Source: Pseudomonadota bacterium (GTDB lineage: Bacteria; Pseudomonadota; Gammaproteobacteria; UBA1113). Taken from it: a stretch of DNA of 64,000 nucleotides. The stretch covers positions 1 to 64,000 of the forward strand of contig JAJXVU010000004.1 of NCBI GenBank assembly GCA_021781965.1. Reading direction: 5' to 3'. The notes under the pieces were generated by a model. It saw nothing but the letters and a program-made list of their open reading frames with translations. It had not been told where the DNA came from and did not search any database. Of the stretch, positions 5,350 through 43,906 are shown one piece after another. Positions within the stretch are counted from its first letter, which is position 1. Each line of letters starts with the position of its first letter. The position numbers and the translations under genes were made by a program.

Positions 5350-8300
5350 ATGCGTATCTTAATTGATCTACAAGGAGCTCAAACAAATAGTAAACATAGA
5401 GGTATTGGCCGTTACTCGCTGGCTTTAACCCGAGCTATTATTGAAAACCGTGGTCAACATGAAATTATTCTAACACTAAATGGCCTATTTTCAACCACAG
5501 TTGCCCCCCTAAAAGCAATATTTGCTGATTTATTACCTAAGGAAAACATTGTTGTTTGGTATGGCCCTAGTCACGTCAATTATGGAGATCCTAATAATGC
5601 ATGGCGTAGGAATGCCGGTGAACTTATACGCGAATCTTTTTTTAATTATCTTAATCCCGATGTTATTCTTTTAACCAGTTTATTTGAAGGACAACAAGAA
5701 GACGCCATTACTTCTATCGGTAGATTAGCCACCTCAGCTAAAACTGTGACAATCTTATATGATTTAATCCCTCTACTCTATCCCAAAGAATATTTAACAA
5801 CACCCTCATCCCATATATGTTATATGGATAAGATAAATTCACTGAACAGATCCGATTTACTACTGAGTATTTCTAACAGTTCAACTAAGATAGGTATGGA
5901 TAAACTTAATATAAAGAATATTGTTACCATATCTTCTGCTACAGACCCCTTTTTCAGACCGCTTTCCTTAAGCGAGTCAGAAAAATCTGTACTTAAAGCG
6001 CGTTATAATATAACGAAAAAGATAGTACTATATTCTCCCGGTGGATTTGACGCACGTAAAAATTTGGACGGCTTAATAAGCGGATATAATGCATTACCTG
6101 AACAATTGAAGAATGAATACCAGCTTGTTATTACCGGCTTTTTAACACCTGAGATAAAAAAAACATTAAGCATTCTAGCCCAAAAAGCTGGCTTAAAAAG
6201 CAATCAATTTATCTTAACCGACTATGTCTCAGAAAATGAGTTGGTGTATTTATATAATGTTGCTGACATCTATGTATTTCCTTCTAAATATGAGGGATTT
6301 GGGTTATCTGTATTAGAAGCAATGTGCTGTGGTACACTAACCATCGGGTCTAACATTGATAGTGTAGCAGAAATTATTGACAATAAAGATGCTCTGTTTG
6401 ATCCGAATCAAAATAGTTCCATTACTCAAAAATTACAGCAAGCAATAGAAGATAATGCTTTTATAGAAAAAGCAAAAAATATAGCCCAAGAAAAAATAAA
6501 AAATTTCTCTTGGGACATCACTGCTAAAAAAGCACTGCGGGCGCTGGAGTCTTTGCCACTATCCCCCCCGAACACCTTAACTTCTATGATAGATATAATC
6601 ATTGAGAAAGTGCCTTGTAAAAACACATCTATGACGCCATCAAAAAGAGACTTAATGTTAATTGCAGAGTGTATTGATAAGAATTTACAGCAAATATTTT
6701 CTTTAAAACAAAAAATTCAAAAATTAACTTGGAGAATAGAAGGCCCATTTGATACTTCTTATAGCCTAGCACTCTTAAATAGAGAAACAGCAAGAGCGTT
6801 AAACAAACTTGGGCACAATATTATTTTATATTCAACAGAAGGAAATGGGGATTTCCCCCCCAACCAGGATTTTTTGAAAAAAAACCCCGATTTGGAACAA
6901 ATGCACTTGCGCACTAAAACCTCAAAGATTTGCGAAATAGACATTGTTACGCGTAACTTATACCCCCCCAGAACAACAATGATGCGGGGAAGTTTTAATA
7001 TGTTTCATCATTATGCTTGGGAAGAATCTGGATTCCCTCATCAGTGGGTCTCTGATTTTAATTGCCATCTTAATGCTTTAACTTGTCTCTCTAAACATGT
7101 CTTAAAAATACTAATCGATAATGGCGTATCTATTCCCATGCTAGTATCTGGCTGCGGTGTAGATCATTGGGAAAGTATTATTCCTGTACCTCCGCCAAAA
7201 TTCAAAGCAAAAAATTTTAAGTTTTTACACGTTTCGTCCTGTTTTCCCAGGAAAGGTGTCGATTTGCTTTTAACTGCATATGGCCGCGCTTTTACAAAAG
7301 AGGATGATGTATCCCTTATTATAAAAACATTTCCTAACCCGCATAATAATGTTTTTATAAACCTAGAAGAACAGAGGGCCAAGAACAGTCATTTTCCGGA
7401 TGTTATTGTTATCAACACAGATCTCTCCAGCGCAGAGCTGAAAGGATTATATGAATTATGTGATGTTTTGGTAGCACCCAGTAAAGCGGAAGGATTTGGG
7501 CTTCCGCTTGCTGAAGCAATGTTAAGTGGATTACCTGTTATAACCACAGCATGGGGAGGGCAATTAGACTTTTGTGATGAGGAAAATTCTTGGCTTATCG
7601 ATTATGAATTTGAAAGAGCAGAGACCCACTTTAACTTATTTGCCTCCGTTTGGGCAAGGGTTGATTTAGATCAATTAAGTAAAGCCCTAAAAGTTGCAAT
7701 GAATACGCCAAAGCAAGTTCTTATTAATAAAGCAAAAATTGGCAGAAATAAATTGCTAGAAAAATTCAAATGGACTGATATTGCCCTCAGACTCTCTAGT
7801 GCTGTATTTAAAGTAAAAACTCTTGCCTACAAACCAACATTAAGGTTAGGCTGGATTACAACTTGGAATTCAAAATGTGGCATTGCTACGTATTCAGAAC
7901 ACCTAAGTGCAAAAATGAATAAAACGGAGCTGGTTATTTTTGCTCCTAAAAATGAAATGGCTATTAGCCCTGATAGACCCAATTGCGTTCGTAACTGGAC
8001 TTTAGGAAAAGAAAAAAATAATTTTTCTAACATAGATTATTATATTAGAAATAACCAATTAAACACGGTAGTTATTCAATTTAATTTTGGCTTTTTTAAC
8101 CATAAAGAACTCGCTGAGTTTATAAAAGAGCAGCATTCATTCGGAACCTGTATCGTAATAACCCTTCACTCGACAATTGGGTTTAATAAAGAGAATTTTA
8201 CACTAGAAGAAATGATGCCTGCTTTACAGTTATGCGATAGAGTCTTGGTCCATACAATAGGTGACCTTAATCGTTTGAAGAAAATAGGTCTCATCGACAA

Positions 8301-8970
8301 TGTTGCTTTATTACCCCATGGGATTATTCACAATGAAAAAAGAGTATTACCCACCAATAAAATCCCAATAGTTTCCTCCTATGGGTTTTGCTTACCTCAA
8401 AAAGGATTGCTTGAATTAGTTCAAGCTATTGCTAGCTTAAAAGAAAAAAAGATTCTGGTACAGCTTAAATTGATTAATGCTGAATACCCTATTAATGAGT
8501 CCTCTAAGTTAATTGCAAAGATTAAAAAATTAATACAGGATCTTAATGTAAGTGATTTGGTTGAAATGAATAATAATTTTTTAACTGATAGGGAGAGCTT
8601 ACAATTATTGAGCACAGCAGATTTATTAATTTTCCCCTACAAAGATACAAAAGAATCTGCTAGTGGCGCTGTTCGGTATGGAATGTCTTCTGGTATCCCT
8701 GTCGCAGTAACTCCTATAGAAATATTTAGTGAGCTAGAAGGTGCTACATTTAAACTAAGCGGCCAAAGTGCAGAAGACATTGCCAAGGGAATAGAAGAAT
8801 ACTTACAACACATTTCAACACAATCACCTTTAGCCATAGCTACAGCTGCCTTAGCCAAAAATTGGTGTTTACAGCATAATTATAGTACTATAGGCCTCCG
8901 ATTAGAAGGGCTATGCATGGCTCTGTTAACACAAAAATATTTGAATTCAAAAAATCTTATTGGAGCATAA
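5350..8970 (+). CDS. Three-domain GT4 glycosyltransferase (1206 residues)
   Basis: One polypeptide with three successive GT-B/GT4 modules, expected to polymerise or build a repeating unit of the polysaccharide. Module 1 (about 1-395) has GIGRYSLALTRAI near its start and the EX7E motif SKYEGFGLSVLEAM. Module 2 (about 455-810) has DTSYSLALLNRETARAL and SKAEGFGLPLAEAM. Module 3 (about 825-1206) starts LRLGWITTWNSKCGIATYS and has a divergent site (KESASGAVRYGMSSGIPVAV) in which the canonical glutamates are less clear. Multi-domain transferases of this type (for example WbdA of E. coli O9a) assemble homopolymers exported by Wzm/Wzt, which matches this locus. It precedes gmd by 6 bases. Confidence 0.9.
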   Translation: MRILIDLQGAQTNSKHRGIGRYSLALTRAIIENRGQHEIILTLNGLFSTTVAPLKAIFADLLPKENIVVWYGPSHVNYGDPNNAWRRNAGELIRESFFNYLNPDVILLTSLFEGQQEDAITSIGRLATSAKTVTILYDLIPLLYPKEYLTTPSSHICYMDKINSLNRSDLLLSISNSSTKIGMDKLNIKNIVTISSATDPFFRPLSLSESEKSVLKARYNITKKIVLYSPGGFDARKNLDGLISGYNALPEQLKNEYQLVITGFLTPEIKKTLSILAQKAGLKSNQFILTDYVSENELVYLYNVADIYVFPSKYEGFGLSVLEAMCCGTLTIGSNIDSVAEIIDNKDALFDPNQNSSITQKLQQAIEDNAFIEKAKNIAQEKIKNFSWDITAKKALRALESLPLSPPNTLTSMIDIIIEKVPCKNTSMTPSKRDLMLIAECIDKNLQQIFSLKQKIQKLTWRIEGPFDTSYSLALLNRETARALNKLGHNIILYSTEGNGDFPPNQDFLKKNPDLEQMHLRTKTSKICEIDIVTRNLYPPRTTMMRGSFNMFHHYAWEESGFPHQWVSDFNCHLNALTCLSKHVLKILIDNGVSIPMLVSGCGVDHWESIIPVPPPKFKAKNFKFLHVSSCFPRKGVDLLLTAYGRAFTKEDDVSLIIKTFPNPHNNVFINLEEQRAKNSHFPDVIVINTDLSSAELKGLYELCDVLVAPSKAEGFGLPLAEAMLSGLPVITTAWGGQLDFCDEENSWLIDYEFERAETHFNLFASVWARVDLDQLSKALKVAMNTPKQVLINKAKIGRNKLLEKFKWTDIALRLSSAVFKVKTLAYKPTLRLGWITTWNSKCGIATYSEHLSAKMNKTELVIFAPKNEMAISPDRPNCVRNWTLGKEKNNFSNIDYYIRNNQLNTVVIQFNFGFFNHKELAEFIKEQHSFGTCIVITLHSTIGFNKENFTLEEMMPALQLCDRVLVHTIGDLNRLKKIGLIDNVALLPHGIIHNEKRVLPTNKIPIVSSYGFCLPQKGLLELVQAIASLKEKKILVQLKLINAEYPINESSKLIAKIKKLIQDLNVSDLVEMNNNFLTDRESLQLLSTADLLIFPYKDTKESASGAVRYGMSSGIPVAVTPIEIFSELEGATFKLSGQSAEDIAKGIEEYLQHISTQSPLAIATAALAKNWCLQHNYSTIGLRLEGLCMALLTQKYLNSKNLIGA

Positions 8971-39844: not shown

Positions 39845-40621
39845 TTAAAAAACATCTGGTAGATAAATACCCCTGACTACTCTGCTTGGGATAGGATCTT
39901 TAAACTTTTGATTCAAAATGAATAATATTTTAGCAATCCCTGTTCTAAATTTATTAATTGTCTTAATCATTTCGCTATATGAAAAAGCTTGTGTATCGAG
40001 TCCTTCATGTTTAAAATCATTATTTATTTTTTTTAGAAAACAAAAATCGATCCATATTGATGCTGGAGATTGATTCATCTTATACCCAACCATTCTATGA
40101 AACCAGTCATTTAGTTTAGTATCTAATCGCGATTCTTTTTCATCGAAAATAGGAACATCGCTCCTTTTATTGTATATAAGGGCTTTTCTTGTAATATAGT
40201 TTTCTATAGCGATAATACCATGAGTAATACAGCTTAATAATGCAGCCCCATCGTTCATTTTAATAGATTGCTCTCTTTCTTCTAATGCTTTTTTATAAGA
40301 ACTATGATAAGGAAGTATATTGAATTGACCTGGTTCAGATAGTTTTTTAGTAATTACTCCTTTTTCTTGCATCGAAATTTCAACATTCGGATATGGGCTA
40401 TGCCATTCATAACCTAAAATATTTTCCACAAATGGAATAGCTTTTAGATATCTAGTTTTTTCAATCAAAAACTTCCATTTTTCACCATTACTCTCAAAAA
40501 AATACTTGATTTCATCATTGGATATGTTTCTTAGTTCCTTCCGTGAATGATCTGAAAATTTAGTCATATCGTATATAAGACATTCTGCTTGTTTAGCAGA
40601 AATCATTGGTTTTTCTCTCAT
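39845..40621 (-). CDS. HEPN-like protein with degenerate RNase motif
   Basis: A 258-residue helical protein with no clear named family. The C-terminal half (about 125-240) looks like a HEPN domain: a helix with GIIAIENYITR, a spacer, then LKKINNDFKHEGLDTQAF followed by a final long helix. In catalytic HEPN RNases the motif reads RNxxxxH; here the Arg position is Asn (N200) while H205 is kept, so RNase activity may be lost or changed. I chose the ATG at 40621 because AAAGGTGA lies just upstream. A truncated XRE-antitoxin ORF ends 32 bases upstream on the same strand, which suggests a former toxin-antitoxin or abortive-infection unit. Confidence 0.6.
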   Translation of the reverse strand: MREKPMISAKQAECLIYDMTKFSDHSRKELRNISNDEIKYFFESNGEKWKFLIEKTRYLKAIPFVENILGYEWHSPYPNVEISMQEKGVITKKLSEPGQFNILPYHSSYKKALEEREQSIKMNDGAALLSCITHGIIAIENYITRKALIYNKRSDVPIFDEKESRLDTKLNDWFHRMVGYKMNQSPASIWIDFCFLKKINNDFKHEGLDTQAFSYSEMIKTINKFRTGIAKILFILNQKFKDPIPSRVVRGIYLPDVF

Positions 40622-40653
40622 GAATATCACCTTTTTTAAATGCTCTTCCAAAT

Positions 40654-40827
40654 CTAGTAACCAATTGCTTTTACTGCTTCTACTTGAGCCTTTTCAGCTA
40701 TTTGTCTAGCTCGTACTAAAGTGGTTAACAAAGAAAACTCTCCTTCAAGCTCGTCGTAAGCTTTCTTTACACCTGATCGCTTTAGTGCTTTTTCAACTAA
40801 CTCTCGATGTTTATTATTTGCTTTCAT
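40654..40827 (-). pseudogene. Truncated XRE/HigA-like antitoxin remnant
   Basis: A 57-residue ORF with an excellent ribosome-binding site (TAAGGAGAAAAT then ATG). Its words VKKAYDELEGEFSLLTTLVRARQIA follow the N-terminal pattern of HigA/XRE antitoxins (V-x-AYDxLExEFxLxxxLIxAR). The helix-turn-helix that should come next is replaced by EKAQVEAVKAIGY and a stop. It may be a broken antitoxin, or a peptide still translated and coupled to the HEPN-like gene. No HigB/RelE toxin lies upstream; a genomic palindromic repeat occupies that place. Confidence 0.6.
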
Positions 40828-41633: not shown

Positions 41634-41741
41634 ATATAGAAAATTTACTTTCAAACACTAACTGCTCAATGAGAATATGAGAAGTAGACTATGTTTTTAT
41701 CTTTTTTTATTGAGTGGCTACGCAATAGGAGAAAACAGAAA

Positions 41742-41924
41742 ATGTTAGTTTTAACACGACGTATAGGTGAGAACATTGTTATAGACGATGATATTATCAT
41801 TCGAGTATTGGATATAGGTGGGCAAGTGAAGCTGGGCATTGAAGCACCGGAAAGCGTGACGGTGCATAGGGAGGAAATCTATGAAAAAATCCAATCGGGA
41901 CGGCGGCTAGACTCAATGGACTAG
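41742..41924 (+). CDS. csrA: Carbon storage regulator CsrA
   Basis: A 60-residue RNA-binding global regulator that binds GGA motifs near ribosome-binding sites. The canonical start [18 protein letters not shown] and the segment [20 protein letters not shown] (with VHREEIY, the RNA-contacting C-terminal strand) are intact. The ATG at 41742 is supported by AGGAG upstream; the longer frame from 41691 is not plausible. In Legionellales, extra csrA copies are common on mobile islands, and the surrounding accessory genes suggest that this is one, but it could be the main copy. GGA-rich leader sequence suggests autoregulation. Confidence 0.95.
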
Positions 41925-41979: not shown

Positions 41980-42037
41980 TGGTATCTATTAGCCAATAGA
42001 TCTTGAAAAAAAATCAAATACATACTAATATGCAGCA

Positions 42038-43069
42038 ATGAAATATTATTACGCAATTTTTAAAAAGACTGCTGAAGCAATTGAAGTTACATTCCCAGAT
42101 TTAGACGGTTGTGTTACTTTTGGCGACACTTGGGAAGAAGCACTCGAAAATGCAAAAAACGTTTTGGCTGGATGGTTAGCTCTCGCAGATAAAATTTATA
42201 AAAAAGAACCATCAAAACATGACGAGCTTGTTCATTTATCAGGAGAACTTGTTCCTATTGTTGTTAATACAAAGCACTGCAGTTCATGCACGTGTAAAGT
42301 AAGCAAAAAAACGGTGCCTAAAGAAGAAGAGGAAAAATATCGTTCCTGGGTAACTGTTTCACTTATTAACAAAATAAGCGAGTTTCAGCATCGCCTTTCA
42401 GAAATTGTTACGGCTTGTGATGAAACAATGAATTTATTTAAACTGGGGTATATTGATTCTGTTATCCAAAAAAGTAATGGGGAAAATTATCGTTTAGTCT
42501 GCTATAGTTTCTCTTCATTCTCAAGTGTTGTTTTAACGCTCAAAGATTCGGTTACCACATCTCTTGAAGAATGTTTCCCAAAAATTAAAATAAAAAAATT
42601 ATTTAAATGTAAACACATGAGGTTTATACTTGATAGCCGCAATGCAATCACTCATGATGGAAACTCAATAATCAATGGATGTTTAAATGGGTTATATTTT
42701 GTAGGCTCTAATATTATAAGACGACTAGATAACAATAAGGAACTCATAGAGATTAAGGCCCCTATCACCGATATTCGAACGTTATGTTTAGAATTTGCCT
42801 TAGACTATTGTATGTGTATTCATCAACTTTTTGCGGAGGCGGTTAAAAATGGATATAAAGATAGAAAAGGCGACATTAGCGAACTTAAACAAGCTATTAA
42901 TGAATCAAATATAACCCCACCCTATATCCGATCTATTGAGTTTGATTGGGAAGAAATGGCGAAAATAGTAAATAATACTGAGCCGAAAACTGTTGAAAAT
43001 ATCATGCATAATTTAAGCGAAGTAATTGACTACTGTAAGCTAAAAACACAAGAAACGGCAGCATTATGA
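42038..43069 (+). CDS. HicB-like antitoxin domain fused to HEPN-like domain
   Basis: A 343-residue protein with two parts. Residues 1-75 are a HicB-like partial RNase-H-fold domain (MKYYYAIFKKTAEAIEVTFP, DLDGCVTFGDTWEEALENAK), which in HicAB systems neutralises the HicA RNase. A Cys/Lys linker follows (HCSSCTCKVSKKT). Residues 105-330 are helical and hold LDSRNAITHDG (R201, N202, H206), which fits the catalytic Rx4-6H motif of HEPN ribonucleases. No hicA gene is adjacent. The combination suggests a self-contained antitoxin-toxin or defence effector. The 3' end overlaps the convergent next gene by 6 bases. Confidence 0.65.
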   Translation: MKYYYAIFKKTAEAIEVTFPDLDGCVTFGDTWEEALENAKNVLAGWLALADKIYKKEPSKHDELVHLSGELVPIVVNTKHCSSCTCKVSKKTVPKEEEEKYRSWVTVSLINKISEFQHRLSEIVTACDETMNLFKLGYIDSVIQKSNGENYRLVCYSFSSFSSVVLTLKDSVTTSLEECFPKIKIKKLFKCKHMRFILDSRNAITHDGNSIINGCLNGLYFVGSNIIRRLDNNKELIEIKAPITDIRTLCLEFALDYCMCIHQLFAEAVKNGYKDRKGDISELKQAINESNITPPYIRSIEFDWEEMAKIVNNTEPKTVENIMHNLSEVIDYCKLKTQETAAL

Positions 43070-43906
43070 AATCAAAGTGCTCAATTTTTTAATAGCACTT
43101 TTAATAAAGTCGGGGTAATATGGCTGAATTATATGTTCAATTTTATGCCAGAGCAACAATAATATAACAATAATCAGCCCTGTTACCCACTTCAACCAAT
43201 GCTCGTATATCTTTTTGCCCACAGATTTTAGCATAATAGAAATATTACTTTTAAACCTTAGCCATTTTAACGAGATTTTTTTTGATGCAGAATAACACGT
43301 AAGCTTTGTTTTTAAGCTGGCTATTTGTCTTGAGAATAGTCCGAGAAAAGCTCTATCTTTATTGTCAGTAAGATCATATCTTTCCTCTGGAAACCAACTT
43401 TTTCTACTGTCACAATCAATATTGTCTAACATCTGCATACAGTCTGCTTTCCAAGTTTTATACGCTTCAAAATCAAAAGCGCTAAATGAAACAGCATTAT
43501 GCAATGACAGTTTTTTTATAATTTCTGTTCTTCTCTGTAGGTCTATTTTATCTTCAGACATATCTTCAACAGGAATATATTCTAAATAAAATTTTTGAGG
43601 GAAATTCTTTATGTTCTCAAATACGCGTGCCTCTATCCTTTTATTCTCTTTATCAAAATATATATAAATGATAGGGTCCACTCCTTTTTTTGAAGGAACG
43701 GATCTATCACGAGAAAAACCATTAGACTCAACAGGAAGAAAATTAATAGTCGATAGTACTGATTTATCATATTCTTGATATTTCAAAAAAAGTTGTTCTC
43801 CACTGCTTATAAGTTTTTCTATATTTTTTACCGCTTCATTTGGTTTTATTTTTAATAAAAACACATTACATGCTGCTAACTCTTTTAAACATGCTTTACT
43901 TATCAT
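43064..43906 (-). CDS. Unknown protein with C-terminal membrane helix
   Basis: A 280-residue protein I do not recognise. Residues 1-225 are soluble, charged and predicted helical with some strands, with no known catalytic motif visible. One strong membrane helix (WVTGLIIVILLLLWHKIEHI) lies at about 240-260, followed by a short tail, so it is tail-anchored. It converges on and overlaps the HicB-HEPN gene by 6 bases. Convergent overlap with an RNase-like gene and low GC suggest an accessory gene; membrane-anchored partners are common in defence pairs, but that is only a guess. Confidence 0.6.
   Translation of the reverse strand: MISKACLKELAACNVFLLKIKPNEAVKNIEKLISSGEQLFLKYQEYDKSVLSTINFLPVESNGFSRDRSVPSKKGVDPIIYIYFDKENKRIEARVFENIKNFPQKFYLEYIPVEDMSEDKIDLQRRTEIIKKLSLHNAVSFSAFDFEAYKTWKADCMQMLDNIDCDSRKSWFPEERYDLTDNKDRAFLGLFSRQIASLKTKLTCYSASKKISLKWLRFKSNISIMLKSVGKKIYEHWLKWVTGLIIVILLLLWHKIEHIIQPYYPDFIKSAIKKLSTLIS

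Follow-up and report, generated by a model that had tools for sequence, protein, structure and literature searches.

A HicB domain joined in frame to a complete HEPN-like protein in a gammaproteobacterial genome

According to PMC2701414, HicA and HicB are strictly found with each other as unique pairs, several fusions excepted. A survey of HicA (PMC10865869) includes fused and long HicBs, with no HEPN and no arrangement like the one described below. In HEPN domains, the motif ends helix 3 and an acidic residue is located in helix 2 (PMC3710099). One of them, Tha of Staphylococcus phage 80alpha, consists of an N-terminal part of unknown fold and a HEPN RNase that is activated by phage tail proteins (PMC11087260).

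Layout and rarity of the fusion

The analysed window, a stretch of 64,000 nt, contains an open reading frame at 42038..43069 (+), with an ATG start and 343 codons for amino acids in one unbroken frame. Coordinates, strand and length agree exactly with the preliminary description of this DNA. The product is a fusion of a HicB domain to a complete second protein. The HicB domain comprises residues 1 to about 78-79 (42038..42274, +), as delimited by a PF15919 match and by alignment with congener, phage and plasmid HicBs. It is followed by a short, cysteine-rich linker (residues 80-92, HCSSCTCKVSKKT; 42275..42313, +), which falls outside both family alignments, and by the HEPN-like protein (residues 93-343; 42314..43069, +), delimited by alignments with its relatives and by their start-codon positions. 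A promoter-like TTGAAA-N17-TAATAT at 42003..42031 (+) ends 6 bases before the ATG; it is a hint only, as the scan gives about as many matches in shuffled sequences and the match is not significant.

The database survey proposed in the preliminary description confirmed the fusion in its source genome, but yielded no second carrier in about 1,290 genomes. None was found in plasmids or phages either, nor in pattern-limited scans of genome and viral contigs. Among 79 phage HicBs, screened by length only, nearly all measure 83-155 aa, and the single one of 257 aa owes its size to an upstream extension. The fusion is thus a singleton, which limits what can be claimed for it. As had been supposed, it is apparently undescribed so far: the open-access literature on HicB and HEPN, mostly at the level of titles and abstracts, holds no account of it.

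The surroundings of the fusion have some features of their own. DNA resembling csrA, at 41691-41924, precedes the fusion by 113 bases; the host genome has six such copies and the congener G003 five. Further upstream, the region 39845-40827 (-) encodes a 57-aa ORF, by eye like a truncated XRE-type antitoxin, and then a 268-aa ORF with the motif KKINNDFKHEG, by eye also HEPN-like; neither has a convincing Pfam family. On the other side, a convergent 280-aa ORF (43064-43906, -) shares 6 bases with the end of the fusion and has a hydrophobic stretch near its C-terminus, with no convincing family.

Origin of the HicB half

The HicB-like N-terminus is real. It is matched by Pfam HicB_lk_antitox PF15919 over residues 5-49 (E 2.6e-9, above the curated cut-off, on profile positions 3-47 only of 123), by the PHROG HicB-like family over residues 1-67 (E 6.3e-13) and, weakly, by UPF0150 over residues 18-49. 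It is also 60% identical to the HicB of the congener (locus L002, 402-791), and the residues conserved among four compared HicBs are kept. The RHH-like C-terminal tail of the congener's HicB is missing, with the HEPN-like protein in its place, and the fusion does not have the C-terminal DNA-binding domain that defines HicBs of the RHH/HTH class. A comparison with the congener's gene gives a dN of 0.20 and a dS of 1.41, which, being above 1, is near saturation. These values point to a HicB sequence that stayed constrained between fusion and congener, a constraint that may mostly pre-date the fusion.

A profile of HicA gave no match anywhere in the window, nor elsewhere on its contig (C25), and neither the 113 bases that separate csrA from the fusion ORF nor the sequence downstream of the ORF showed any trace of hicA. 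The sole HicA match in the assembly is located on contig C35, beside its own PF05534-type HicB, while the fusion is the only PF15919 HicB of the assembly. The statement that no hicA is nearby is thus borne out. These data also bear on the idea that the HicB part binds a HicA, for example one carried by a phage or plasmid, with the effect of neutralising that HicA or of switching on the HEPN part. The retention of the conserved HicB residues and the presence of intact HicA-HicB pairs in phages would suit such a switch. However, the host's own HicA adjoins another type of HicB, and assembly may suffer from the missing RHH tail. We consider this role very improbable.

In the congener, a broken hicA remnant is found directly upstream of hicB (L002 about 780-1080, -). 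A stop codon interrupts it in frame close to its start; its intact C-terminal half matches PF07927 (E 1.4e-8, profile positions 20-57 of 58). This remnant, together with a HicB carrying an RHH-like tail, indicates that the genus had an RHH-class hicA-hicB module. By its appearance, the fusion derives from a hicAB module that decayed and in which a HEPN-like gene took the place of the DNA-binding tail. The HicB part is most simply read as a relic of such a module, of which the congener, with its broken hicA, shows the decaying form.

The HEPN-like half and its relatives

Over its full length, the C-terminal part has homologues that exist as stand-alone proteins of 231-246 aa. Searching 369 genomes of the class revealed relatives of 246 and 231 aa, which have no HicB. 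Others are encoded on a plasmid of Acinetobacter pittii and on a viral contig, and a profile search added copies in Guyparkeria, Nitrincola, Methylobacter, a gammaproteobacterial MAG, Halomonas (broken) and a second Acinetobacter. The copies of Halomonas (L026 about 5990-6450) and Cupriavidus (L124 3896-4478) are split across frames. On viral contig L030, another small ORF near the HEPN-like gene (7737-8327, -) encodes an RNDLFH motif.

An in-frame GTG at 42314-42316 (V93) aligns with the start codons of these relatives. As the stand-alone proteins start at this position, the entire HEPN-like gene has been captured in the fusion, and the GTG is possibly a relic of the relatives' start codon or an internal start. 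A decaying hicB might also have been joined to an incoming HEPN-like gene by chance, leaving the HicB part without a role; in this neutral scenario, translation from the internal GTG may still supply the HEPN-like part. The fusion being a singleton, the conservation of the relatives' start-codon position as GTG and the already broken hicA of the congener would all agree with it. Yet no break interrupts the frame, and the HicB block is well conserved: its dN is far smaller than its dS, a signal that may mostly pre-date the fusion. Inspection of the sequence also revealed no good ribosome-binding site before GTG 42314. A neutral fusion seems rather unlikely to us.

The alignment of the fusion with seven relatives, which are 17-29% identical to it, shows that the R, N, A, T, H, D and G of RNAxTHDG are invariant in all eight sequences, as is a K-D pair upstream. 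In the fusion, this putative Rx4H catalytic motif reads RNAITHDG (R201-G208; 42638..42661, +). R201-NAIT-H206 is the sole Rx4-6H in the protein, where about 0.7 matches are expected from the composition; the motif alone is not significant, and its invariance in the relatives is, judged from the alignment, more than chance. Remote relatives in Rhizobium and Methylobacterium have a Lys in place of the motif His and may thus be inactive. The stand-alone RNAxTHDG family has no convincing match to any Pfam, NCBIfam or PADLOC family, and the PDB sequence hits for its profile are designed helical proteins.

It is likely, from the predicted structure and the alignment, that this part of the protein is a HEPN domain. 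An AlphaFold model of the full chain has confident C-terminal helices, with ten-residue block means of about 69-96 over residues 111-270. The HicB part reaches a pLDDT of about 30-50 in this model, a low value attributed to misalignment in the mixed HicB and HEPN alignments. For the isolated C-terminal domain, the mean pLDDT is 79 and the pTM 0.76. In the full-chain model, R201-H206 are situated in helix 194-207, closing the third core helix, and the invariant D170 (codon at 42545..42547, +) lies within helix 149-176, which corresponds to HEPN helix 2 and is followed by a helical insert. Both the conserved Rx4-6H and the placement of motif and acidic residue known from HEPN proteins are found in this model. 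In the model of the isolated domain, helix 3 stops earlier, just before the RNAITHDG motif.

Foldseek against the PDB returned no match at E <= 0.001. The HEPN chain 8xeh_B superimposes on the full model with a Z of 6.8 (113 residues, rmsd 3.5), but unrelated helical bundles tie with it, and it is absent from the structure hits listed for the isolated C-terminal domain. Curated HEPN profiles of Pfam, NCBIfam, PHROGs and PADLOC gave no match, the PADLOC Cas13a hit at E 0.015 being non-significant, and an hhalign comparison of the HEPN-like family with the HEPN phage-defence protein Tha was negative. The proposed comparison of the C-terminal part with HEPN folds has returned a HEPN-like helix layout but no significant match in the structure search, and the assignment of an RNxxxH-type HEPN motif is backed by the invariance of the motif and the order of the helices, not by a retrieved fold.

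The HicB profile detected no HicB beside any stand-alone relative tested, so that, going by these neighbourhoods, the family does not need HicB for its control. The Acinetobacter pittii plasmid relative adjoins RelE/NadS and YafO toxin genes. Two others (L023 and L024) sit in cassette-like arrays, with attC-like ends judged by eye, without an attC model. The degenerate copy on the Cupriavidus plasmid adjoins TIR and SIR2 genes. These contexts are mobile or defence-like. Among more remote relatives, those of Rhizobium are placed behind a cytosine methyltransferase and an ATPase, and those of Paraburkholderia near Vsr, methyltransferase, Eco29kI, PIN and SIR2 genes.

In genome G461 (L029 1132-2361, -), a remote relative (RNIVVHKG; hhalign probability 95%) is located 105 bp downstream of a HicB. 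The GC content differs strongly between both genes (34% for the HEPN-like gene vs 59% for HicB), which suggests that the HEPN-like gene was inserted beside a resident hicB. The neighbourhoods of its plasmid relatives L127-L131 revealed no HicB. A widespread HicB-HEPN pair was considered and rejected, given this GC mismatch and the plasmid relatives without HicB; the G461 case, the single other adjacency, is treated as chance.

Proposed function and comparison with known systems

The preliminary description had suggested that the protein may be a self-inhibited RNase, with HicB acting as the antitoxin of the HEPN part. The presence of a HicB and an RNxxxH-type domain in one chain without HicA stands, but the role given to HicB is not supported, as the stand-alone relatives lack it and HicB is simplest as a hicAB relic. 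In such a cis toxin-antitoxin, HicB would fold over the HEPN active site until a phage product, a protease or a ligand releases it. The combination of an antitoxin-type and an RNase-type domain in one chain without a partner argues for it, as do the single-chain precedents CapRel-SJ46, EzeT and fused HicA-HicB (PMC10865869, PMC4826407). Against this, the relatives manage without HicB, and HicB is known as the antitoxin of HicA, in a pair reported as strictly unique apart from some fusions (PMC2701414); a relic origin of the HicB part is also simpler. Self-inhibition is possible, but because of the stand-alone relatives it is not favoured, and we regard it as rather improbable. The same doubt applies to antitoxin swapping between unrelated RNase toxins by domain fusion, in which a HicB freed from HicA would have found a new use, sensing for or inhibiting in cis an RNase with another fold, the HEPN part.

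The best explanation, to which we give about an even chance, is an RNase of the HEPN type that belongs to a mobile effector family, is active only under certain conditions and has recruited a HicB domain as a regulator or assembly part. The HEPN-type ribonuclease gene of a small mobile effector family would have landed beside a decaying hicAB module; hicA would have disappeared, and the HEPN-like gene, in its entirety and in frame, would have taken the place of hicB's DNA-binding tail. We infer that this gene fusion probably yields an RNase that forms homodimers, with a predicted active site at R201/H206. As in other stand-alone HEPN effectors, its activity would be absent or weak until stress or infection sets in. 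The HEPN-like part occupies the position of HicB's dimerising RHH tail. The kept HicB domain would probably serve as a regulatory, sensing or assembly module and not as a dedicated antitoxin.

Compared with described hicAB modules, the fusion has the same kind of HicB N-terminal domain as Class 4 (PMC10865869), in which hicA is followed by a hicB with a C-terminal RHH domain, the layout also seen in the congener's L002. It differs from this class in having no HicA in the window and a 250-aa HEPN-like protein instead of the RHH tail. In the fused HicA-HicB of Classes 11-13 and the long HicBs of Classes 7-8 (PMC10865869), HicB is likewise part of a larger single chain, but these classes, unlike the fusion, contain HicA or adjoin hicA. 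Class 8 long HicB (342-356 aa) was rejected as an assignment, its HicB fold being C-terminal (PMC10865869).

Among HEPN proteins, the integron cassette HEPN (PDB 3jrt; PMC3710099) is gammaproteobacterial, mobile and single-gene with a catalytic motif, and some relatives of the fusion are cassette-like; 3jrt was absent from the PDB-chain sequence searches and from the structure hits listed. Tha (PMC11087260) is, like the fusion, a single gene with an Rx4H (RNSIMH in Tha), but there is no detectable sequence relationship, and the N-terminal part of Tha is not HicB. The HEPN of Legionella HEPN-MNT (8xeh; PMC11586414) also has an Rx4H, and its bundle overlap (Z 6.8) is within helical-bundle noise; in contrast to it, the fusion has no MNT partner and no tyrosine after the motif (RNAITHDG vs RX4HXY). 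Proteins of the stand-alone RNAxTHDG family are candidates for mobile RNases or anti-phage effectors. HicA-HicB is reported as a closed pair that other toxins do not enter (PMC2701414); a HicB on another type of RNase would show the re-use of an antitoxin module.
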